Shown piece by piece: positions 8,797 through 62,972 of a DNA stretch of 64,000 nucleotides. The notes below the pieces were generated by a model. It was not told the origin of the DNA. It did no database searches and worked only from the letters and a program-made list of their open reading frames with translations. The DNA comes from Melampsora larici-populina 98AG31 (Eukaryota > Basidiomycota > Pucciniomycetes > Pucciniales > Melampsoraceae): NCBI RefSeq assembly GCF_000204055.1, contig NW_006768766.1:652706-716705 (forward strand), in the 5' to 3' direction. The translations under genes were made by a program, and so were the position numbers. Position 1 is the first letter of the stretch; the number at the start of each line of letters is the position of its first letter.

Positions 8797-9034
8797 CACC
8801 TTTGCCTCATGACCAAAGCGGACGAACTCAACTATCATCCAATCCACCCAAGTGTATCATCAACCCAAAAGGGACAACGCGACATGGCAATTGTTATTAT
8901 CACACGTAAAACGAACATGATCGATTCAAGGTGGCAAATTTTTTGTGATCGGATTGTCAGCGCCAACGAACACGACTTCGAACATGGTTGTCGAGACACT
9001 CATCCACGAAAGGTACCAACTCATCAGCAACGGG
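8797..9034 (+). repeat. 238-bp direct repeat, copy 1 (copy 2 at 9075-9312)
   Basis: Bases 8797-9034 recur at 9075-9312, offset 278, with no difference I could find. Forty bases separate them. They lie at the 5' side of the plus-strand accessory genes inside the KDZ element and suggest a very recent local duplication. Confidence 0.9.
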
Positions 9035-9312
9035 ATTAGTTCTCGGACCGGGTGAAGCGACGAGCGCTGACCTTCACCTTTGCCTCATGACCAAAGCGGA
9101 CGAACTCAACTATCATCCAATCCACCCAAGTGTATCATCAACCCAAAAGGGACAACGCGACATGGCAATTGTTATTATCACACGTAAAACGAACATGATC
9201 GATTCAAGGTGGCAAATTTTTTGTGATCGGATTGTCAGCGCCAACGAACACGACTTCGAACATGGTTGTCGAGACACTCATCCACGAAAGGTACCAACTC
9301 ATCAGCAACGGG

Positions 9313-44300: not shown

Positions 44301-46372
44301 GCATCCAAGATGACCACACCAAATCTATCAAAAGATTAGTTCAAATAAAGAAAAAAAGATCATCAAATGAGCTTAGTTGTGAGTTGATGAGCTCTTTCTC
44401 GACCAATTTTTTATCTTACATTGGTAAGCCAGATTCTCCTATGGTCTCCTATAAGATGCAAGATGAAAATACGGTAAGATTGGATACTTCAAAAAAGACG
44501 ATAAATAAATCTCTAAATACTAACTTTGATGGCCATAAGACAAGTAGCAGCATCATCAGTCAAGATATTCCCATCCACAATCGTACCCGAAGTCACCACA
44601 CTTCTCAATTCTCTTCGTACGATTTCCTTGGCACCAGGTTTAGGTTTAGGTTGTGATTTAGCAGATTTCGAACTCGGAAGACTTCCTTTGTTCCTCATTT
44701 CGGCTCCTAGAGCCGTTTCACATTGATCTACTTTACCTACCTTCGAAATTGAATTCGAAAGTTAAAGTTCTCCATATGACTTGGAAAGATTGATTGATCA
44801 CATACTTTGTATCCCTTTGCAAGAAATTTAGCGATCCAGAAATCTACGGATGTTTCAGGTACTCCCACCATAGACTGGTCAAATGAAAAAAGAGGTGATC
44901 ATGTGAAGCTTATTAGTCAGCTGATCAGTTTATTCAGACTTGAGATCAGAGTCCTACCATCTTGACACGTTTGGTGATCTTCAGATCAAATTCTCGATGA
45001 CCAATCATCGCATCACCTTCATAAAGTTCGGAAAATTTCCCTTTATAAAACAAAAAGAAAACGCTCAATTTGGATTCATCTTTGGAATTGGGTCTTATTG
45101 GATGTTTTGTAAGAAGATACGAACCTTTCTGGAAAAAGAGAACAGTATCAAAGTGCCCTAAAAAGGTGATCTGATTAATGAAATTACCCTAAAAAGTGGA
45201 TAAAAATGAGCTAAAGGATGAATGAGATGAGGTAGACTGACTTTGTTTGATTTCCCAAAATTGGGTTTCAAAAGGTGTCATCGCTTTCCAATCTTCTTTT
45301 GAAATATAAAGAGTCCTTGGATCATATTCAGGTGATCCAACAGGATTTTGATCTGCCTAGAGAGAAAAAAAGCAACACGTCAAATTAAGAATTGATGGAT
45401 TTCAGAAGACAGTTTGGTCTTGGAAAAGTCAAAAGTATGTATCCTTACATCTCGTATATCTCTAAGAAATTTCCAAGGAGCTTGTTTCGATTCGTTTTCT
45501 GATTTCTCTTGTTGTTTTTTCTTCTCAGCTGTTGTCCAAAGTGAACTGGAAGATGATTTGGTGTTTGAAGTTTTGTTTGATTTAGCTTTAGAGACTCGTT
45601 TGACTGAAACTTCTTGATCGGATTCTTGATCTTCAAATGAAGCGTCCGCTAAAGAACATGATTGGTATTAGAATTCTGATAGGTTTGAGAAATCTGGTAT
45701 GGAAGACAAACTATCTAGATCGTCCAAGTTACTAGAAACTTCTGTGTGACTGTAATCTTCAGATTGAGAAGTGGCTGATGCGTTAGATCCACGAGAGTAA
45801 CGTGGTTTTTTGGCAACATTTGACGTTTTCTTAGCTTTAGGAAAAGAAAATCGATCGATTTGACAAATCAGATAATTAGTAATGAGCTGATTGGTTTGAA
45901 AAAGATGTTCAATTTGAAGAGGAATACATACAATTGGTAGGTTCGTCAATTTCAGAAGAGTTAGGTGAGTGATTCATGACTACACTTTTTCGTTTGTTAG
46001 GCTTTCTTGTAGTCATCATTGGCATCTCTTCATCTTCATCTTCATCCATGACGGATGGAGGGATTGATGTAGTTTCGCTGACTTGATCGCTTACTACTGG
46101 ATCAGATTTGGTATCTGGTTTAGATTTGACCGTCGTACTAGAACTCGGTGTAGACTTTGGTTGAAAGAAGGACTGTTTAGGATCAGAAAGAACAAATGAG
46201 TTAGCTGAAAAGTCAATGATGTTCATGATAGGGAACAAGACAGTCAACTGACGCCTAAAGTAACTTGTTTCATCTTGGCCTTTTGAGTTGAGCTAGAATC
46301 CCCTTTATTATTGCTGTTTGTAGGATGATTTCGACTTTGAGAGTTTAGATTACTTTTAGGTGTTGGTGGCAT
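41339..46372 (-). CDS. MSH6: DNA mismatch repair ATPase MSH6
   Basis: About 15-17 exons, order and content matching MSH6, which pairs with MSH2 (MutS-alpha) to recognise mismatches in the nucleus. Seen in order: ATG 46372 ([12 protein letters not shown]); a PCNA-box-like KQSFFQPKS in exon 46204-45932; an acidic/basic linker; the mismatch-binding domain ([40 protein letters not shown]); connector and lever ([18 protein letters not shown], RRxLxxx-type [13 protein letters not shown]); clamp; and the ATPase with Walker A GPNM/AGKST split by an intron (about 42430-42505), then [41 protein letters not shown] and [12 protein letters not shown]. The end is TGA at 41339. Exon 1 (46253-46372) does not join exon 2 in frame through a GT donor; a GC-AG intron or a later start is possible. 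Confidence 0.9.
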
Positions 46373-46806
46373 TTTGATTTGATGATGATGGATTTCTTGT
46401 GAATCTGATTGGTTTGATGTTCGAAATGGTAAACAGACTCAAGTCATCAACCAAGATTCAAGAAATTGGAAAACCGACAAATCTTCAATTGACCATCAAC
46501 CTGTAAACCTTGATCCAGTTCATATTTCACGGTCATTACAAGCACACTCAATCCACTTCGTCATCAAAGGAATATCATAGCCTATCGTCAATGATTACCA
46601 GGCTTATGTCCTTTTCGAATCAGCTTCCAGTAAACCAACTTCAACCAAATGGAAACATCAAAACCAAGGATGGTTTCTTGAAAGAAGGGAGGAAGAGGCA
46701 CGTGTGATATAAGGATATGTATGCGAAAAGTGAGTGAGATTGGTGTGATCACGTGACAGGGTTGAAGTCGCGTCAAACTATTTCAGAGAGAGACTTGGGT
46801 CGCGTT
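46373..46806. promoter_or_regulatory. divergent promoter of MSH6 and the LRR-like gene
   Basis: The 434 bases between the two starts contain two CACGTG E-box motifs, 46699-46704 and 46750-46755 (the latter inside TCACGTGA). The second is conserved in the duplicated copy at 60711-60716; the first is changed there to TACGTG. Regulation by a bHLH factor is inference. Confidence 0.55.
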
Positions 46807-48201
46807 ATGTTTCTGAAGTTGACCATCATCATGAGCTCACTAAACCATTCAGCAAGAACATCAACTTCACAAGAAATCTCAACATTAACTCAAACTTGTA
46901 TTCGAATCATATCTCAATTCATCTTAAACATCATCACTGAAAAACAAAATCAACTTCAACTTCAATTTGATCTAATCTTTAATTTCATATTTGATCACAA
47001 TCAACATCAACCCAAGATCACTTCAGAACAATTCAAACCAATCATTCAATCTATCTTAACAACCATCAATCATAATCAGAACTCTCATCATCATCATCAA
47101 TTACCATTTCCACTCTATGCTTCTATTTTGAAAACTTATCAAGATTTGACTATCTTTGATTTACAAAATACATCCAACTTGAACCGACTACCATATTCGG
47201 ATCTAGTCTTAAAGGATGAAACCAAATTCAACATCTTATTCAATCTAAATCCAAACCCAACCTTACCTTTAAATTTACTTACTATTTTGAATTTAAGTTG
47301 GTATACTACATTTTCAGATCAAGATTTAAATATCATTCACTCATCATTGAAACATTCATTAATTATTCTTAGATTGGATTACACTTCGATCACTGATTTA
47401 GGTATCTTTAATTTATCTCGTGAAGTCAATTTAAACAAACTTGAACCATTCGGATCTGGCCTTGAAGAAAATGATTTAAATTATCTAAGAATGGATGAAC
47501 GATCGAATTGGAACAAACTGACTGTTTTGAGTCTTAAAGGTTTAAAATTAATCACCGATAAAGCTTTGGTTTATTTATCTAGGTTTCCAAACTTAGGAAT
47601 CATTGATTTAAACTCGACCTCTTGTACTCTTGCTTCTTGTCAAATCTTGAACAAATCTATCATGAAAACGTACCAAAAACTTCATCCGCATCCACCATCT
47701 ACTTCTCATTCGTCTGTCGTCTTAAAACAATTTCATCATCCGACATCTAAATTCCAACTTGATTTCTTTTCAGGTCAATTCACTTTATCTGAAAAGTTTT
47801 TCCGGTTTATGAAGTGGTTAGAACCTGATGGGTTTGATGATCATCGGTATGAAGTTTTTCAAATTAATTGGATAGATCAGGATGATCGACCAACAAATCG
47901 ATTCCAATCCACTTATCAATCTGCTAAACTACATGAACATAAATCGTTTTTTCATAAATCTATTCAACTTAAACCTTTGGACACTTTAATTGATCCTTCA
48001 CTTTGTTTGATCATTGATTATCCATTTAAATCAATTCAATTGAATCATACTGAAGTTTCTGAAACTACTTCAAGACATGTTGATCATCAAGTTAAAGTTA
48101 AAAGAAATTTAAAGGCTTTGGATAGGTTGGGTCTGGATGATGATTTATCTTTACTTGAATCTTATAAATCTAAAAAAACTAAAACAATTCATCATCCCTA
48201 A
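46807..48201 (+). CDS. LRR-like (F-box/AMN1-type) protein of unknown role
   Basis: Single exon, 464 residues from ATG 46807; Met at 46831 is an alternative. Frame upstream to 46753 has only GTG. Asn/Gln/His-rich N-terminal part (NHNQNSHHHHQ). Residues in the middle show leucine-rich-repeat character: LLTILNLSWYTTFSDQDLNI, LIILRLDYTSITDLGIFNLS, LTVLSLKGLKLITDKALVYL, NLGIIDLNSTSCT. This is the cysteine-containing LRR style of F-box adaptor proteins, but no F-box is obvious. Basic tail (KSKKTKTIHHP). It shares a promoter region with MSH6. A broken second copy lies at 60768-62737. Confidence 0.8.
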   Translation: MFLKLTIIMSSLNHSARTSTSQEISTLTQTCIRIISQFILNIITEKQNQLQLQFDLIFNFIFDHNQHQPKITSEQFKPIIQSILTTINHNQNSHHHHQLPFPLYASILKTYQDLTIFDLQNTSNLNRLPYSDLVLKDETKFNILFNLNPNPTLPLNLLTILNLSWYTTFSDQDLNIIHSSLKHSLIILRLDYTSITDLGIFNLSREVNLNKLEPFGSGLEENDLNYLRMDERSNWNKLTVLSLKGLKLITDKALVYLSRFPNLGIIDLNSTSCTLASCQILNKSIMKTYQKLHPHPPSTSHSSVVLKQFHHPTSKFQLDFFSGQFTLSEKFFRFMKWLEPDGFDDHRYEVFQINWIDQDDRPTNRFQSTYQSAKLHEHKSFFHKSIQLKPLDTLIDPSLCLIIDYPFKSIQLNHTEVSETTSRHVDHQVKVKRNLKALDRLGLDDDLSLLESYKSKKTKTIHHP

Positions 48202-48298
48202 GCTTCTTAGTTTCTTTTCATATCATTCATGTGTGTATTTCTAAATGATCAAGTGTACAAAAAAATGTCTCATTCTTGTACAAACTGACAAGGTCAAC

Positions 48299-48350
48299 TA
48301 AGCTCCTCTTCCTTCTGATATGGCCATGTCTGCTCTTGTAGAAGAGCTTA
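48299..48350. repeat. hairpin repeat, AAGCTCCTCTT/AAGAGCTTA type
   Basis: Inverted arms around TGATATGGCCATGTCTGCTCT. Followed to about 48440 by a block containing CTGGCCTGAGACCAGCA and GATCAGGGCTCTAA. The same two blocks occur at 62983-63117, and a diverged form at 39971-40115. Confidence 0.75.
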
Positions 48351-48538
48351 TACCCCAACTCTGGCCTGAGACCAGCAAGAATTTCAAGAACTTTTGATTG
48401 AGCTTCCTTTTTTGATCAGGGCTCTAAATGTCATGAAACCTTGCAATAAATTTGGTAGCAGAGCTTCTTCAAGCTCTTCTGCTTCTCCTCATACTATCTT
48501 CAGCTTGTTACCACTTGATCAAGTATAAGGGCACCTTC

Positions 48539-48672
48539 ACTTAAGCAATTTCTGGTGAGAAATCACATTCTGCAAAATTTAAAGTGTTTATTTGGTGGTG
48601 CATGGTTCATTTTTGCATTAAAAAAATTAAAGAGTGTGATTTGTGGTCAGAAATTCCTTTGGAGGTGAAATC
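48539..48672. mobile_element. worn copy of the ~145-bp TAA-type MITE
   Basis: Begins after TAA with GGGCACCTTCACTTAAGCAA and shares TTTCTGGTGAGAAATCACA and the central TTTGGTGGTGCATG with the element at 62828-62972. Its right end is diverged. Confidence 0.75.
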
Positions 48673-50242
48673 ATCAATTTTCACCACATCAGATGTTACA
48701 AATTTGAAGTTTTGAAGTTTTGATTTTTTAAATTCTTGAACTTGACCTTCACATTTAAAGGTCAGATCCAACAACTTCTTGTAGATCCCCCTGTCTGGTT
48801 AACTCTATTCCCTTTTCACATCTTTTGATTCATTTGATCTTATCAAGAAAAAAGCTCTTCAAAGATATCATTTGAAGTTCAAAATTCTTGTTTATCAAGG
48901 TGGATCAACATAGGAGGAGTGTTTTTGGCTTTTGTTTGTTCTTTAGTTATGTTTTTTTTTAAATTACATCAAATTAAAATTGAAGTTCCACCACAATCCT
49001 GAGATCTGATTTCTTAACACTACTGCTTGAGAGAGAAAGCACTAGCTGCCAAACCCCTGACCCTTGGGGTGGCTACAAGTTAGAGTTATCAAGATACAAA
49101 AACCTATAATACATATGACTTTAAGCCTTTTTGGGAGGGACAGAGGGTTTCACAAAAAAAATTCACTATTAATAGAATTGGAATGATACTGTATTGATAG
49201 AAAAGATTTTTTGTTGATGATGGAAATAGATGAACTAATTAATACAATGATTATGTTAGGGACCAAAGACTTGACTGGTACAAGTACTGTAGATAACTAG
49301 CATACTTCCCTTTTGCTCCATTATCTCATGTCTTGTCAATCTCCTAAGAGATGAACCCTGTCTCTTGCCCAGTTTAATTACTGGGCAAGCAAGGATATTA
49401 TGTGGGCTAGAAGCTCTCTCAAATCATGAGATCATTTGAGAGGGCCAGTTTCCAAGAGGAAGCTGTTCTTCATGTTTGCCAAGAAGGGTTTTTCTGCCTT
49501 CCACCAAACATAGAGGAATGGGTCCTCTTATAAAGACAAGAGCAAGGAGAGCCAGAGTCTCCCAACAGGACACTGTGCCCGTGGAGAGCGCCCCAGACGT
49601 CGGGGGCTCCAACAAGTACAAAGGCTTCCCTCTGTACTCTTGAGGGCCCCTGACGTCTAGGGCGCCCTCCACGGGCACAGTGGGAGACTGGTGCTCTCCT
49701 GTTATTATATAGGGAGGGCAGGTTGGAGAAAAATTATCTTGTTAGCTAGTTGCTAAAGAGTTCTTGTTAACTCTAGAAGTAGGGGATCCTTACAAAACTA
49801 AGATATGGATAATTTCAGTTGTGCTTGTTATGATTAGTTAGTGGAAGTGAAAGATGTAAAGTGAAACGGTTGGGAAAAGGAATGAAATATATTATGCTCA
49901 GCATGGAGCTTTATACATCACCTACTAAGTGTATGTGCCACAACTGTAGAGTTCTAATGATGTAAGACACTCTAATATTTCCCGTAAGACCGCAGTCAAG
50001 AGTGGGAATTTGATATGTCTCTTTTGGGAAATAAACGGACAGGCCATTCTTTTCCTCTTTTCCATTTTATCATCCTCTGTCTTCACGGTGCATGCCTTCA
50101 TGGACTTGTTCCACACATTGTGCCTTGTGTAAATTCCTACGTACTGCACATCTTCTCAGACTGGATCTTGTGGTATGTCTTTTTACATCTCCTTCTGATT
50201 TTCAGATGAATGTCTTAACCTCACTTCTGCCTACTCAATATC
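48673..50242. other. intergenic/mobile DNA before the palindrome
   Basis: No gene supported. It contains the GC-rich foldback at 49545-49700 listed separately. Confidence 0.5.
49545..49700. repeat. 156-base GC-rich foldback (hairpin)
   Basis: Arms of roughly 65 bases: AGGAGAGCCAGAGTCTCCC and then CACTGTGCCCGTGGAGAGCG on the left pair with GGGCGCCCTCCACGGGCACA and then GTGGGAGACTGGTGCTCTCC on the right. The tip is GTACAAAGGCTTCCCTCTGTAC. It stands out in AT-rich DNA. Confidence 0.9.
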
Positions 50243-51632
50243 CTCAAGTCTCAACCATGTCCTAGCCCTGTGCCAGGCCCGCCCCCAAGACCCAATTGTT
50301 TTCCTTCTAGTATATAATGCCAAATCAATTTTTGGGTGTTGTTTTTGAGTTTTTTTCAAAAGAAATACTTCAGTGAGATCCTCAAAGTACTTGATATCAA
50401 AGTGCCCTACTGTCAGACTCCTAAGTCTTTGACCCAAAGATGATGTTCACTATAAAGAAAATCTGGATCAGATATGAGTGACCAAATTGTTTCTCAAAGC
50501 AAGACTCTATTATTAGACCAAACATGATGACTTATTACAATCCATTTATCAACAGGTTTTTGTTTGATAAAACTATGTTTTTTAAGATTGGCTACGATTG
50601 AGACTAGACTTGAGCAACTGTACCCTCTAATTATGTCATGAGCCAATGAAACCACTCACCATCATTGCCAGTTCAATCATGTATCACTTTCTGGATGCAA
50701 AAATATAAATACTTGCTCAAGTAATCTGAAGAGCCATCATTCTTCTTGTCAGGAATCTCTACAGAGACAACATAGAATTTCTAAAGAGTTTCTCTCTCTT
50801 GATCAAGATTTTGAATCAATAGCATTTTTTGACTGCATATTAACAATCTTGTCCTTTTGAAAGCAAAGTGTGTGTGATTTCTTTCCTTTTCCTCCGCTTC
50901 CCAAAAATTTGCTAGGTTGGTAAGATTCAAGAACAAGGATTGTCCCCTGATCAAAAGATCTGTGATGATGCTAAATTTGATTTTTTATAGTTGATAGGTC
51001 CTGTTGTCTAGGATTTGACACCCAAAGAACATTTCCTTGAGATTTGGTTTCTCAATTACACCTTTTTTCTACTTCTCCAATCCTTTATTTCATCTTTTCC
51101 ATTAATTACTGCTTCTAATTAGAGAAACGTCAGACTGACCAACTCTCACAATTGATTTTGTTTCAAGTCTTCAATATATAGAAGGTTATCTGTTGTGGAA
51201 GATTTATCACCAATCACAAGCTTTTTGGAAGTATCTTTTCAGGTAAGTTTTCAGAAACTTGAGAATCATCCATTGATGAGGCTCTATCCAATTTGAAGTA
51301 GTCCATTCAAATACTGATCCACGAAATAATGTGAGCTTATAGGGATGTTTTACAAACCTTATGCTACATTCATTATCTTGATGGTCATGCATAACATCAC
51401 AATGGGATCTGACCCTCCAGTGGAGGATTGTCACTGTGGTTTTCCCCGAACATTTCTTGACTATTACCCACACCAATGTGATCAACTTCTTAGGTGTACC
51501 TGTGATCCACCTCGAGTTACTAAAACAACTAGTTGTGAAGCAGATATCATCATAAAGGAATTTTCTTGCTCAAACCCAAGGTGTGGTAGTTTATACAACC
51601 AGAGCAATTGTCAATCAAACCATATAAGTGCC
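50243..51632 (+). repeat. left arm (1390 bp) of a long palindrome
   Basis: Reverse complement of 51902-53291 with identical length. By eye only one difference was noted (G at 51323 against the complement of T at 52211). Outer border at CTCAAGTCTCAACC, inner border at CATATAAGTGCC. Confidence 0.95.
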
Positions 51633-51704
51633 GATATTGAGTTTGAAAAAAATCTTTACTGGCCTCATCTTGTATCAGAAAAAATGAACAAAAGATTTCC
51701 ATAA
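51345..51704 (+). CDS. predicted small secreted cysteine-rich protein, copy 1
   Basis: 119 residues from ATG 51345. Residues 1-21 look like a signal peptide with a hydrophobic core (YATFIILMVM) and a likely cut after ITMG. The mature part has nine cysteines at 29, 31, 45, 51, 53, 64, 75, 80 and 89, with C-x-C pairs. The first 96 codons lie in the palindrome arm; the last 23 residues (ADIEFEKNLYWPHL and on) come from the spacer. Small size, secretion signal and cysteine richness fit a candidate effector or adhesive/structural secreted protein of a fungus. No known family was recognised. Single-exon model; an unnoticed intron is possible. Confidence 0.6.
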   Translation: MFYKPYATFIILMVMHNITMGSDPPVEDCHCGFPRTFLDYYPHQCDQLLRCTCDPPRVTKTTSCEADIIIKEFSCSNPRCGSLYNQSNCQSNHISADIEFEKNLYWPHLVSEKMNKRFP

Positions 51705-51877
51705 ACTATTTTCAGATTCATTGGTGAATTCTTACAAGAAACTTTTCACTAGCCAAAGTACTTATCTAGGATAAATGAAAAGTAATTCAATCAATTCAAA
51801 ATGCATTATTACCACTAAATTGGTTTTGTTTTATAGAGATTAGATCAATTCAACTTTGACACTTGAGGGATATATAT

Positions 51878-52189
51878 TCAACCATGATGAACAATACTAC
51901 AGGCACTTATATGGTTTGATTGACAATTGCTCTGGTTGTATAAACTACCACACCTTGGGTTTGAGCAAGAAAATTCCTTTATGATGATATCTGCTTCACA
52001 ACTAGTTGTTTTAGTAACTCGAGGTGGATCACAGGTACACCTAAGAAGTTGATCACATTGGTGTGGGTAATAGTCAAGAAATGTTCGGGGAAAACCACAG
52101 TGACAATCCTCCACTGGAGGGTCAGATCCCATTGTGATGTTATGCATGACCATCAAGATAATGAATGTAGCATAAGGTTTGTAAAACAT
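51878..52189 (-). CDS. predicted small secreted cysteine-rich protein, copy 2
   Basis: 103 residues from ATG 52189. Residues 1-96 match copy 1 exactly as translated, including the signal peptide and all nine cysteines. The frame then leaves the palindrome arm and ends after seven different residues (CSIVHHG). The two genes point at each other across the spacer. Which copy keeps the ancestral C-terminus cannot be told from here. Confidence 0.55.
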   Translation of the reverse strand: MFYKPYATFIILMVMHNITMGSDPPVEDCHCGFPRTFLDYYPHQCDQLLRCTCDPPRVTKTTSCEADIIIKEFSCSNPRCGSLYNQSNCQSNHISACSIVHHG

Positions 52190-53291
52190 CCCTATAAGCT
52201 CACATTATTTTGTGGATCAGTATTTGAATGGACTACTTCAAATTGGATAGAGCCTCATCAATGGATGATTCTCAAGTTTCTGAAAACTTACCTGAAAAGA
52301 TACTTCCAAAAAGCTTGTGATTGGTGATAAATCTTCCACAACAGATAACCTTCTATATATTGAAGACTTGAAACAAAATCAATTGTGAGAGTTGGTCAGT
52401 CTGATGTTTCTCTAATTAGAAGCAGTAATTAATGGAAAAGATGAAATAAAGGATTGGAGAAGTAGAAAAAAGGTGTAATTGAGAAACCAAATCTCAAGGA
52501 AATGTTCTTTGGGTGTCAAATCCTAGACAACAGGACCTATCAACTATAAAAAATCAAATTTAGCATCATCACAGATCTTTTGATCAGGGGACAATCCTTG
52601 TTCTTGAATCTTACCAACCTAGCAAATTTTTGGGAAGCGGAGGAAAAGGAAAGAAATCACACACACTTTGCTTTCAAAAGGACAAGATTGTTAATATGCA
52701 GTCAAAAAATGCTATTGATTCAAAATCTTGATCAAGAGAGAGAAACTCTTTAGAAATTCTATGTTGTCTCTGTAGAGATTCCTGACAAGAAGAATGATGG
52801 CTCTTCAGATTACTTGAGCAAGTATTTATATTTTTGCATCCAGAAAGTGATACATGATTGAACTGGCAATGATGGTGAGTGGTTTCATTGGCTCATGACA
52901 TAATTAGAGGGTACAGTTGCTCAAGTCTAGTCTCAATCGTAGCCAATCTTAAAAAACATAGTTTTATCAAACAAAAACCTGTTGATAAATGGATTGTAAT
53001 AAGTCATCATGTTTGGTCTAATAATAGAGTCTTGCTTTGAGAAACAATTTGGTCACTCATATCTGATCCAGATTTTCTTTATAGTGAACATCATCTTTGG
53101 GTCAAAGACTTAGGAGTCTGACAGTAGGGCACTTTGATATCAAGTACTTTGAGGATCTCACTGAAGTATTTCTTTTGAAAAAAACTCAAAAACAACACCC
53201 AAAAATTGATTTGGCATTATATACTAGAAGGAAAACAATTGGGTCTTGGGGGCGGGCCTGGCACAGGGCTAGGACATGGTTGAGACTTGAG
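51902..53291 (-). repeat. right arm (1390 bp) of the long palindrome
   Basis: Inverted copy of 50243-51632, separated from it by a 269-bp unique spacer (51633-51901). Just outside its outer border the sequence TGTACCCTCTAAT resembles a site inside each arm (near 50612). Confidence 0.95.
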
Positions 53292-55183
53292 ACTAGTGTA
53301 CCCTCTAATAATCATGTAATGAGGTGTGTTGTGATGTTCATATGTCTATTAATACCTAACATTCCCCACCATTATAAAATTGTACAATTCCTGTGCAGTT
53401 GTTTTATATTTACTTATCTCTTCATTTTGAACACAATGTTTCACAATTGGGCCCTATTTCAAATGTACATAACTGGGGGTAGTGTGAGGCGTCAGCAAGC
53501 ATTGGGCTATCTCTTCACTAAAGGTTTGAAGTGATGACAATACACAGGGGGAATAATAGAAGCTCACATAGAGGTGAGAGTAATGAGTTTCACAGTGTCA
53601 TTTTACTAGTCAGTGGCAGGCCAGTGAGTTCCATTCACCTCAATCCAATCTCAATTCAATGTCAGTTCAATATAATTTTGACCTCCAATTCTGTTTGAGT
53701 GGGGGATATGCATGGGCTGCATAATCACTCAAACCTTCCAGACATTCTGACACCTTCATGTGTGGACATGCAACCAAACTTTATTTCAGTTCATTCTGGA
53801 AAGTTGTTTGTCTGCTACTCTTGGCCAAACATTGAGATTGGATTGATATTGAACTGACATGGATTTAAGATTGGATTGAGATTGGATTGAGGTGGTTGTC
53901 CAGTGAGTAGTAAAATGACACTGTTTGAAGGTTTCTCCAAGCTTTCTTCTGGTTTGTTTCCAGATTTCTTGCTGTTTTTCTCCTGTTTTCTCCCAGTTCA
54001 TCAGCTGATTAATTGGTCAACATGGCTTGAGAAGATGAGCCAGGCTTACCTCAGGCTTTATCCACTAGCCAAGAAGAAACCTGAGGGAGGAGGACAAGCA
54101 GCAAAAATTGTCACAAGGTCCTCAAAGTTATGGACTTTAGGGCAAAATGTTGGCTATTTTTCCCCTTCCAGAAAAATAGCCAACTTGACCAAATCCCTCT
54201 TGGATGAACAAGTATTCAAGAGAGGTACTTGTACCTCATACCACGACTTTGGTGTATGAGCCGGATTTTTTTTGCTGGGAACCTCATCAATCCTCCATAT
54301 CTCCGTAGCCTGCATACAAATATCCTCTGGACCAAAGAAAATCCTCTGCGCTTGATCATCCTATGCACACATGTCTTGTCAAATCTCTCCCTTGCTGCCA
54401 GGAAAGCACTTAAAAACAGAAGAATAGCTTTTTGTGTAACATTTCAGTGCATTTGACGTGAGCTTTTGACAGCACTATCAACATATTTACCTCATATCAA
54501 AACATGCAAGGTATCCTTGGATCCCAACCCTTGAACAGAATCTTTTCAAGGTTTTGATCTGAGGTAATTCTCAGTGCAAAAGAATACCTTGGATCAAAAC
54601 CTTGGACAAAGTCTGTCCAAGGATTTGCCTCTGATGATGCCTCAGATTTTTCAACCATGTTGGCATTGCAGGTTGGTCAGCTTTCTGCCTGATTTGGGTG
54701 TTTTTTGCAAACTTCACAATTGCATTGATCTGTAAGTTTTGAATCAGATGAGAAGTAGGATGGCAGACGGTACCCAAAGGCACAACGGTACCGTCATTTT
54801 CCACAACACGGGGCGATATCAGGCTATGGGTGCATTGGAAGTGTCCTGGTAGCAAGGGTACTCTTCCAGACGTGTACAGGAAGGGAAACTTAGAAAGTGA
54901 AAAATTTTCATTCCATTTATTTTCCTTCCGCACATCAAATTTCCCATCCTCAACTATCCCACGCGGCTTCTGGAAAATACTCAATCTCTCTCTTTCTCTC
55001 TTGATTCAAGCTCAGTAGCTAGAATAATCTTTTTTGGAATTGATTAAATCATACTTCATTCATCAAGTAATAATTCATAAGAATAAAAGAGCTCAAAGGA
55101 ATAAAATTGCAAAATGTCAAATAACAAAAAATTGACGAATACTGAAAACTTTAGATAAATGATGAAGAGATCTAGTAGTAGGT
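53292..55183. other. mobile-element-rich DNA without a supported gene
   Basis: It contains the inverted-repeat element at 53593-53924. A coding-like plus-strand stretch of unknown origin lies at about 53900-54460. Repeated CAAAACCTTGGA/TCCAAGGTTTT-type motifs occur at 54500-54630. Confidence 0.45.
53593..53924. mobile_element. ~330-bp inverted-repeat MITE
   Basis: ACAGTGTCATTTTACT at the left pairs with AGTAAAATGACACTGT at the right. Inside, CACCTCAATCCAATCTCAAT and ATGTCAGTTCAATAT are also mirrored. No coding capacity. Target duplication not clear. Confidence 0.75.
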
Positions 55184-59419: not shown

Positions 59420-59835
59420 TAAGAGATGGAATTCTTAAAAGGAGAAGATGGACTTGACACAACCAAGGCTGATTTAGTAAAGACTTACATGAAAAGTGGG
59501 AGTTGGTCGACTGCAATAATTAAACATTAAAACACTGAGGTTTCCAAATTAGTGGTGTTTGCAACAGAGAAGGGTATACCTTGTACTTCATTGTTGCCAA
59601 TTGATCCCAACGTGTTGTACTACTTTGTTGTTTGGGCTGTACTTTAATTACCTGATGTTGTTCTCAATCAAAATCCAATACCTACCAAATCAAATACAAT
59701 ACGGACGTACTTATTGGGAGTAAAAGCATGGCATCTTTTTCATAATTCCAAATACCCCCATAATGTCACCCCACAAATTGAGGCAATCTTAACTGCTGCA
59801 AAGAAAATTGAACTATTGTCGGAAGAATCAGTAAA
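59420..59835 (+). pseudogene. tyrosine recombinase N-terminal fragment
   Basis: Interrupted frames give KADLVKTYMKSGSWSTAIIK, VVFATEKGIPCTSLLPIDPN, LYYFVVWA and LLGVKAWHLFHNSKYPHNV. This fits the helical core-binding domain found in DIRS/Ngaro recombinases and phage-type integrases. It ends at TAAAKKIELLSEES, where the sequence joins the MSH6-like segment; no catalytic R-H-R-Y half is present. Confidence 0.6.
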
Positions 59836-60330
59836 GAGCTGATTGGTTTTAAACAGAAGATGTTCAAGTTGAAGAGCAAGACATACCATTGGTAGGTTCA
59901 TCAATTTCAGAAGAGTTAGGTGAGTGATTCATGACTACACTTTTTTGTTTGTTAGGCTTTTTTGTAGTCATCATTGGCATCTCTTCATCTTCATCTTCAT
60001 CGATGACAGATGGAGGGATTGATGTAGTTTCTCTGACTTGATCGCTTGCTACTGGATCAGATTTGGTATCTGGTTTAGATTTGACCGTCGTACTAGAACT
60101 TGAGGTAGAAGACTTTGATTGAAAAAAGGACTGTTTAGGATCAGAAAAAAGAAATGAGTTAGCTGAAAAGTAAATGATGTTGATGATAGGAAACAAGACA
60201 GTCAACTGACGCCTAGGGTGACTTGCTTCATCTTGGCTTTTTGAGTTGAGCTAGAATCCCCTTTATTGTTGCTGTTTGTAGGATTATTTCGACTTTGAGA
60301 GTTTAGATTACTTTTAGGTGTTGGTGGCAT
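59836..60330 (-). pseudogene. duplicated 5' fragment of MSH6
   Basis: Corresponds to MSH6 exons 1-2 and flanking intron (45884-46372). It keeps the KQSFF PCNA-box-like motif, the acidic DEDEDEE run and the [10 protein letters not shown] end. The downstream exons of MSH6 are absent, so no repair protein can be made. Confidence 0.9.
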
Positions 60331-60767
60331 TTTGATTTGTTGGTGATGGATTGGTTGTGAATCTGATGGGTTTGATGTTTGAAATGGTAAACAGACTCAA
60401 GTCATCAACCAAGATTCAAGAAATTAGAAAACTTTGACAAATCTTGGATTGATCAACCTGTAAACCTTGACCCAATTCAAATTTCACGGTCAATACAACC
60501 ACACTAAATCACTCAATCCACTTCATCATCAAAGGAATATCATAGGCTACCTTCAATGATTATCAGAATTAGATCTGGTTTAATTAGCTTCCAGTACGCA
60601 AACTTGAACCAAATGGAAACATCAAGGCCAAGGCTGGTATTGTGAATGAAGTGAAGGGATACGTGTGATACAAGGATATGTATGCAAAGAGTGAGTGATA
60701 TTGGTGTGGTCACGTGACAGGGTTGAAGTCGCGTCAAACTATTTTAGAGAGTCACTTGGGTTGCGTT

Positions 60768-62737
60768 ATGTTTCTGAACTTGACCATCATCATGAGCTCA
60801 CTAACTCATTCAGCAAGACCTTCAACTTCACAAGAAATCTCAAGACTAACTCAAACTTTAATGGAATCAGAGATTCCTAAGCAATCAAATAAACAACGCT
60901 ATCAGTCAAATATCCGTAAAGGATGATCAAGGAGAGTCCGGAGAGATGTTTGTGATGATAGTAGGTTGTTTTGTGAGAAAAACTTTAATGATGAATGAAG
61001 AAAAACATTAAAGCTATCTCAAGAGAAATTTGATAAACTAGGTGTGACGGTACAAGTCATGGTTAGGTTTGAGACAAAAGGTTTTGAGTGAAACAAGAGT
61101 GGTACAAATCACTATGTCTATATAAGTTTTAGTACGCACAAAAACAAAGAAAAGAAGTACAGCTGTTTCAACAAAGATTGTTTTTTTTTGAAAATCTCGC
61201 CAATGTGCAAAAGCTGGGTTTTGTCCTGTTTTGTCCCTCACTCAATTTTGTCTCTCCGCTAATTGGAAGAATACAGAAAAGAATAAACCTGTAAATCAAG
61301 TTTTGTCTCTGGTTTTACCCGCTGCGGAGACAACTTTCTCCAAAAAAAGTTGTCAACCTTTCTTGAAACGGCTGTAATAAAATAGAAATACTGCATAAAG
61401 CAAACACGTCTGTGATTTGGTTCCAACAAACTTGTATTTGAATCATATCTCAATTCATCTTAAACATCATCACTGCAAAACAAAATCAACTTCAACTTCA
61501 ATTTGATTTAATCTTTAATTTCATATTTGATTCTAATCAACATCAACCCAAGATCACTTCAAATCAATTCAAACCAATCATTCAATCTATCTTACAAACT
61601 ATCAATCATCATCATAACACTCACCATCGTCATCAATTACCATTTCCACTCTATGCTTCTATTTTGAAAACTTATCAAGATTTGACTATCTTTGATTTAC
61701 AAAATACATCCAACTTGAACCAACTACCATATTCGGATCTAGTCTTAAAGGATGAAACCAAATTCAACATCTTATTCAATCTAAATCCAAACCCAACCTT
61801 ACCTTTAAATTTACTTACTATTTTGAATTTAAGTTGGTATACTACATTTTCAGATCAAGATTTAAATATCATTCACTTGTCATTAAAACATTCATTAATT
61901 ATTCTTAGATTGGATTACACTTCGATCACTGATTTAGGTATCTTTAATTTATCTCGTGAAGTCAATTTAAACAAACTTGAACCATTCGGATCTGGCCTTG
62001 AAGAAAATGATTTAAATTATCTAAGAATGGATGAACGATCGAATTGGAACAAACTGACTTTTTTGAGTCTTAAAGGTTTAAAATCCATTACCGATAAAGC
62101 TTTGGTTTATTTATCTAGGTTTCCAAACTTAGGATTCATTGATTTAAACTCGACCTCTTGTACTCTTGCTTCTTGTCAAATCTTGAACAAATCTATCATG
62201 AAAACGTACCAAAAACTTCATCCGCATCCACCATCTACTTCTCATTCGTCTATCGTCTTAAAACAATTCCATCACCCAAACTCTAATTTCCAGCTTGATT
62301 TCTTTTCAAGTCAATTCACTTTATCTGAAAAGTTTTTCCAGTTTATGAAGTGGTTAGAACCTGATGGGTTTGATGATCATTGGTATGAAGTTTTTCAAAT
62401 TAATTGGATAGATCAAGATGATCGACCGACAAATCAATTCCAATCCACTTATCAATCTGCTAAACTACATGAACATAAATTGTTTTTTCATAAATCTATT
62501 CAACTTGAACCTTTGGACACTACAATTGATCCTTCACTTTGTTTAATCATTGATTATCCATTTAAACCAATTTGATGGAACCCTACTGAAGTTTCTAAAA
62601 CAACTTCAAGCCATGTTGATCATCAAGTTAAAGTTAAAAGAAATTGAAAGTCTTTGGATAGGTTGGGTTTGAATGATGATTTATCTTTACTTGAATCTTA
62701 TAAATCTAAAAAAACTAAAACAATTCATCATCCCTAA
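60768..62737 (+). pseudogene. duplicated LRR-like gene, interrupted
   Basis: Diverged copy of 46807-48201. The ATG at 60768 is kept, but a 568-bp insertion (60859-61426) splits the N-terminal part. After it the frame is largely kept (LLTILNLSWYTTFSDQDLNI and so on), with a premature TGA near 62573-62575 and a further TGA near 62646. It is not a functional gene. Confidence 0.9.
60859..61426. mobile_element. 568-bp insertion with 7-bp target duplication
   Basis: CAAACTT occurs on both sides (60852-60858 and 61427-61433) but once in the intact copy. The inserted DNA has no long frame; it contains a TCTATATAAG TATA-like box near 61115. Terminal inverted repeats are weak at best, so the class is unknown. 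Confidence 0.75.
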
Positions 62738-62827
62738 GCTTCTTAGTTTATTTTCATATCATTCATGTGTGTATTTCTAAATGATCAAGTGTACAAAAAA
62801 ATGTCTCATTCTTGTACGGATTGTTAA

Positions 62828-62972
62828 GGGCGTGTTCACTTAAGCAATTTCTGGTGAGAAATCACATTCTGCAAAATTTAAAGTGTTTATTTGGTGGTGC
62901 ATGTTTCATTTTTGCATTAAAAAAATTACAGAATGTGATTTCTGGTCAGAAATTCCTTAAGTGAACGTGTCC
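62828..62972. mobile_element. 145-bp TAA-type MITE, best-preserved copy
   Basis: GGGCGTGTTCACTTAAGCAA at the left and, in reverse, GGACACGTTCACTTAAGGAA at the right, followed on both sides by AAATCACATTCTG. TAA flanks each end (62825-62827 and 62973-62975). Too short to code; likely mobilised by a PIF/Harbinger transposase (inference). Confidence 0.9.

Follow-up and report, generated by a model that had tools for sequence, protein, structure and literature searches.

The window analysed here, a 64-kb stretch of the genome of the rust fungus Melampsora larici-populina 98AG31 (C2:652706-716705), contains a 3-kb inverted repeat made up of two indel-free arms of 1390 bp each (50243-51632 and 51902-53291) and a spacer of 269 bp (51633-51901). 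With the window at 0.65-0.72 Mb of a 3.85-Mb contig, the palindrome is internal. Its arms are 99.86% identical over 1390 bp, far above chance, and the near-perfect palindrome of the original prediction was thus borne out in arm length and spacer length. The same prediction had counted one difference between the arms, at 51323 versus 52211; a second, at 51129 versus 52405, had been missed. Both differing sites read CG in the left arm and CA in the right arm (on the left-arm strand). An inverted-repeat search lengthened both arms by 7 bp through mismatches, and the borders used throughout are those of the 1390-bp arms. At a minimum length of 100 bp, the runner-up inverted repeat in the window measured 136 bp (88% identity), and six other stretches of ∼10 kb together yielded a single one (133 bp, 90%).

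Each arm carries the first 96 codons of a small gene, with nine cysteines, and ends inside the reading frame, as had been predicted. Beyond the arm end the left frame runs on to a total of 119 amino acids and the right one to 103. The two genes are convergent, with 173 bp between their stop codons (51705-51877). The features of the locus and its surroundings are as follows.

45874-48659, plus strand: upstream part of an older tandem duplication, counterpart of 59826-62958; its open frame was called LRR-like by eye.
49316-50139, plus strand: dispersed left-flank repeat enclosing a 112-bp foldback (49571-49682).
50233-50242, plus strand: final 10 bp of the left flank, which match the spacer start as its reverse complement.
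50243-51632, plus strand: left arm, added by inverted copying of the right arm; it comprises 1.1 kb of upstream region plus 96 codons.
51345-51704, plus strand: left gene, a hybrid of 119 amino acids with nine cysteines and a 23-amino-acid tail from the once-antisense spacer.
51633-51901, no strand: spacer of 269 bp, within which the right gene completes its frame (last 7 codons plus stop) and the left gene acquires its new tail.
51633-51642, plus strand: 10-bp spacer start, inverted match of 50233-50242 and exact limit of similarity to the downstream unit.
51878-52189, minus strand: right gene, complete, 103 amino acids with ten cysteines and the C-terminus CSIVHHG, as in the downstream paralogue.
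51902-53291, minus strand: right arm, the source of the copy, still in place and collinear with the downstream unit.
53283-53323, no strand: imperfect inverted repeat (41 aligned columns, partner at 52892-52928) containing the outer border of the source arm (53291/53292).

Comparison of the C-termini distinguished the two genes. The right gene and the paralogue in the downstream unit both end in CSIVHHG, and a distant paralogue on contig C20 (MELLADRAFT_106925) ends in CYIFHG. Ten cysteines are common to these three, and since each of the three C-termini contains the tenth, that cysteine is ancestral among these genes. In the left gene the 96 shared codons with their nine cysteines are followed by 23 codons of spacer, which had formerly been antisense DNA downstream of the gene, and the tenth conserved cysteine is lost; ∼1.1 kb of DNA 5' of the start codon is retained. 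The left gene is thus a hybrid and the right gene complete, the two lying tail to tail. The pair had been described as twin genes, which the differing C-termini and the new tail of the left copy contradict. Expression of the hybrid is presumed here, and any effect of it on the fungus would be conjectural.

The gene family comprised three copies plus the one distant paralogue on C20, with proteins 32-34% identical to the C20 member. The right gene by itself matched nothing in the protein database searched, and a profile built from it and its downstream paralogue matched the C20 protein MELLADRAFT_106925 as sole hit. For this reason the right gene and its downstream paralogue, the genes covered by these searches, may be missing from the annotation. 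The C20 paralogue is itself among the members of the secreted-protein profile. The N-terminus looks hydrophobic by eye, and the proteins are on that ground apparently secreted and of the candidate effector type: they are small and cysteine-rich and share a conserved cysteine pattern. Small, cysteine-rich proteins are also typical of the secreted protein families of M. larici-populina described in PMC4678189, one of which has 111 members with a YxC//CxxY//YxC pattern, compared with the three copies and one distant paralogue seen here. Positive selection was considered and found to be unsupported, the dN/dS of the right gene versus its downstream paralogue being 0.69, indistinguishable from 1 (dN exceeded dS in 0.21 of 1000 bootstraps). 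A Pfam scan of nine window frames gave no family for either gene (the right gene was entered from codon 2), a profile search of the PDB gave no match at E up to 1, and a single-sequence structure prediction for residues 23-103 of the right protein was useless (mean pLDDT, 36.5). Scans of the window for tRNAs and for Rfam families (gathering cutoff) gave none. The literature search on inverted duplication of avirulence or effector genes returned nothing on point, and that for 106925 in Melampsora matched only a cacao paper. A stretch that is promoter-like by eye (50678-50747) is 74% conserved over 70 bp at L021:4242-4311, these segments lying 5' of the gene and of the C20 paralogue, respectively, although the proteins themselves share only 32-34% identity.

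A third, related copy was found 15.7 kb downstream (C2:720022 onward). This downstream unit is collinear with window positions 51633-54145, i.e., with the spacer, the right arm and ∼850 bp of the right flank, and the collinear alignment contained no counterpart of the left arm. Because the collinearity covers only these three parts, it is the right arm that stands in its original place and the left arm that was added as an inverted copy. The original prediction of an inverted duplication that copied a small cysteine-rich, apparently secreted gene was thus supported and gained a polarity, from right to left. The two arms are equally distant from the downstream copy, each with 126 mismatches over 1365 aligned columns. 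At site 51129/52405 the downstream unit has the left-arm state and at 51323/52211 the right-arm state, adjacent bases at the latter differing as well. The unit is part of an older tandem duplication (45874-54145 versus 59826-69901, in coordinates extended beyond the window), which also includes the LRR-like open frame; across 48660-51632 the two tandem units show no collinear similarity. In the genome searched (98.3 Mb in 243 contigs; the published assembly has 462 scaffolds and 101 Mb), at least three long copies of the arm were found among at least four matches, all of them at the palindrome locus or the downstream unit. The suggestion that the duplication had been a source of gene amplification accordingly stands for one extra copy at the palindrome, beside the older tandem duplication, and for no more than that one.

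Inspection of the junctions revealed no target-site duplication at the left arm (0-bp direct repeat) and a microhomology of 0-1 bp at the left-arm borders. The last 10 bp of the left flank are, as listed above, an inverted match of the first 10 bp of the spacer. None of 200,000 random pairs of window positions reached such a match (the best, 9 bp, occurred once), and its analytic chance was 1.7e-6. The alignment with the downstream unit breaks off precisely at 51633, where the left arm stops too. At the other end of the source arm, the imperfect inverted repeat that contains the outer border extends over 48 columns in the downstream unit and could form a hairpin; 5 bp past this border, the alignment with the downstream unit has an 11-bp gap. 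A 449-bp inverted-repeat block at the outer arm end was considered as a mobile element and rejected, there being no genome copies of it beyond the two units and the left arm.

The spacer was far closer to the downstream unit than its surroundings were. A genome search with it returned, besides itself, a single match, in the downstream unit, to which it was identical at 264 of 268 aligned bases; divergence was thus 4/268 (1.5%), compared with 128/1369 in the arm and 71/845 in the right flank (spacer versus arm, Fisher P = 9.7e-7). The best changepoint, from 98.5% to about 90% identity, fell at 51904 (95% set, 51876-51949), 2 bp from the arm border at 51902; the stop codon at 51878 lies inside the same set. 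Segment 52641-53120 was also rather conserved (18/464). Windows as conserved as the spacer numbered 188 of 2134 in the LRR block and 0 of 1947 in 51902-54145. The high identity of the spacer could reflect constraint rather than conversion.

Taken together, these patterns point to a recent inverted duplication, which probably arose by break repair with inverted templated synthesis, either by fold-back or by sister fusion. The copying direction, the junctions and the hybrid frame can be read from the bases; the break, the enzymes and the order of the steps we infer from them. Before the event the order would have been left flank, spacer, gene (right arm) and right flank. The broken ends may have lain close to the spacer's left edge, at codon 96 of the gene, or at both places. 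During repair, a 1390-bp stretch of the gene region would then have been synthesized anew in inverted orientation, either by fold-back or by fusion of sister chromatids, the spacer serving as loop or filler; the distal end of this copy would have been joined to the left flank with loss of the DNA previously there. The spacer itself may also be a copy, made from the related unit 15.7 kb away at that time or before. The outcome is one complete and one hybrid gene, tail to tail. This reading is favored by the restriction of collinearity in the downstream unit to the spacer, right arm and right flank and by the C-terminus of the right gene, which agrees with both paralogues while that of the left does not. 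It is also favored by the absence of a target-site duplication, the 0-1 bp of microhomology, the 10-bp inverted match between the flanks and the position of the outer border inside an inverted repeat, as well as by the loss of downstream-unit similarity at the left-arm end and the jump in divergence next to the inner border of the right arm. In the sister-fusion version the spacer would be filler from the downstream unit, which would explain why both of its edges coincide with changes in similarity. With its polarity and base-precise junctions, the locus illustrates how a single repair event could furnish a rust fungus with an additional, altered gene of the secreted type.

Some observations speak against this account. 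Divergence between the arms is 0.14% and that of the spacer from the downstream unit 1.5%, which under one age and one rate has P = 0.0007; a single event would therefore need later arm-to-arm conversion. The unequal divergence could be due to such conversion, to an earlier exchange of the spacer or to constraint on the spacer, and the data favor none of these. Moreover, the microhomology at the inner border, 0-1 bp, is below the 2-8 bp of inverted microhomology in 13 of 21 sequenced inner junctions of fold-back inverted duplications, as reported by Hermetz et al. (2014; PMC3907307), where long repeats accounted for 3 of 21 and insertions for 5 of 21.

Comparison with these fold-back duplications revealed likeness as well as difference. 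Shared with the junctions of PMC3907307 are the inverted copy, a single-copy spacer between source and copy (here with a diverged extra copy in the downstream unit) and a short inverted sequence at the boundary. Their spacers, however, measured 766-70,466 bp in all 21 sequenced junctions, and the rearrangements described there are large and lie next to terminal deletions, translocations or rings, whereas the present duplication covers 1.4 kb with a spacer of 269 bp at an internal locus, with neither a terminal deletion nor a translocation adjoining it. At the junction of spacer and copy the inverted microhomology falls short of 2 bp, and the 10-bp match instead links the left flank with the spacer start. 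Templated or foldback inverted insertions at breaks in yeast, as reported by Yu et al. (2024; PMC11724301), offer a second parallel: they likewise use a local inverted template, with an inverted match of ∼10 bp and low microhomology at the final join (0-5 bp in yeast, 0-1 bp here). The nearby inverted source and the missing target-site duplication at our locus agree with an insertion of this type. The local insertions in the yeast data were mostly 5-34 bp long and reached >150 bp, compared with 1390 bp here; in yeast the two inverted 10-bp copies sit on the same side of the break, whereas here they link the outer flanks of the inverted copy. The locus is accordingly a known kind of rearrangement, an inverted templated duplication, and not a new kind of system, and we assign it no named mechanism.

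A variant of break repair would place the inverted copy at the center of an existing perfect 20-bp palindrome, cleaved as a hairpin, with no loss of flanking DNA and with independent loss of the left half in the downstream tandem unit. It would account for a 10-bp inverted match lying exactly at both left-arm borders; the price is a second independent break at the same base in the downstream unit, and the 20-bp palindrome was not found in the genome searched, which is weak evidence. We regard this variant as unlikely. It is compatible with the preferred break-repair origin, as is the hairpin-RNA reading taken up below, and our confidences in the several readings for that reason do not sum to one.

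Slightly less likely again is an assembly artefact, as the original prediction had allowed, in which a second allele or a chimeric clone was placed in inverted orientation beside the real copy. According to the account of the assembly in PMC4164029, the source was a 6.9x Sanger assembly from dikaryotic spores, with scaffolds chimeric for two haplotypes; 86,877 Illumina SNPs in about 101 Mb are given there, and 40,001 of the SNPs listed for the initial assembly were confirmed. Our division of the SNPs in PMC4164029 by 101 Mb yields a heterozygosity of 0.09%, to which the arm difference (2/1390, 0.14%) is close, and a misoriented allele was considered for this reason. Elsewhere in the genome, RdRP matches of nearly equal score (C25:108236-110088, 438.3 bits; C108:32136-33988, 437.7 bits) suggest uncollapsed haplotypes or recent duplications. 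On the other side, the anatomy of the junctions makes an artefact unlikely. Misjoins at repeats reshuffle existing flanks and make no new ends, so that by this reasoning each of the four distinct arm borders would need a read of its own; nor would a misjoin be expected to produce the 10-bp inverted match or a border that falls just where similarity to the downstream unit is lost. The window contains zero N, and the 269-bp spacer should fit within a single Sanger read. A simple inversion difference between the haplotypes was also considered; it would not, by reasoning, yield the observed junction between arm and spacer start. A form with the spacer flipped may exist as well, since short reads cannot fix the direction of a spacer between identical arms.

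Since the genome encodes Piwi, RdRP and RNase III domains, a hairpin RNA from the palindrome could be processed, and RNA-hairpin silencing, which the original prediction had also suggested, is possible at the level of sequence. As a working hairpin-RNA locus, the palindrome would give rise to double-stranded RNA by read-through and silence the gene family. With 173 bp between the stop codons of the convergent genes, their 3' ends may overlap, and a read-through transcript could form a stem of up to 1390 bp. The genome-wide domain search gave six Piwi matches on three contigs, four of them above the cutoff, two RdRP loci, and a single 830-amino-acid open frame with paired RNase III domains. The best Piwi match, however, is interrupted by stops or introns, and the copied upstream region and nearly whole frame are what any duplication would be expected to bring, with no sign of selection for a hairpin. 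A working silencing locus is, on balance, improbable. For the question whether convergent inverted gene copies give rise to small RNAs in rusts, the locus is a compact test case.

More speculative, and very improbable in our judgment, is a palindrome that maintains itself. Spacer and arm would have been written in one repair event templated by the downstream unit, so that the 1.5% divergence of the spacer gives its age, and arm-to-arm conversion would hold the arms at 0.14%; the spacer would flip, giving either gene the new tail, and overlapping convergent transcripts would feed Dicer. If true, the locus would be a natural switch, at once producing a hybrid secreted protein and silencing the family to which it belongs. 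Movement of a 1.4-kb element by transposition or retrocopying, for which the sharp ends and the common repeats nearby might speak, was rejected, given no target-site duplication, no dispersed copies and ∼1.1 kb of copied DNA 5' of the start codon, unlike a retrocopy; with the long copies found (at least three) confined to the palindrome locus and the downstream unit, the arm does not resemble a transposon family.

Several further repeats were observed in the neighborhood. The dispersed repeat of the left flank has partial copies on C1, C2, C29, C77 and C85; its foldback consists of a 54-bp stem (83% complementary) with a 4-nt loop and is missing from the C29 copy. Directly left of the downstream spacer copy lies a 1.3-kb element with terminal inverted repeats by eye (L005:2933-4244), the end of which matches 12 more places in the genome over 42-45 bp. 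The LRR-like segments of the older tandem duplication (45874-48659 and 59826-62958) are 89-96% identical, with frames, stop to stop, of 487 codons in the first and 377 in the second; the LRR-like open frame had no Pfam match. Farther upstream, an exact 238-bp direct repeat (8797-9312) lies in a GC-richer block at 8-16 kb that is transposon-like by eye, one open frame of which was scanned without a Pfam match, and a 295-bp tandem pair (96% identity) occupies 516-1105. A neighboring Vps16 frame matched proteins of Puccinia striiformis (43%), Phakopsora pachyrhizi (two, 39-40%) and Acaulospora (30%) and three others at 52-55%.
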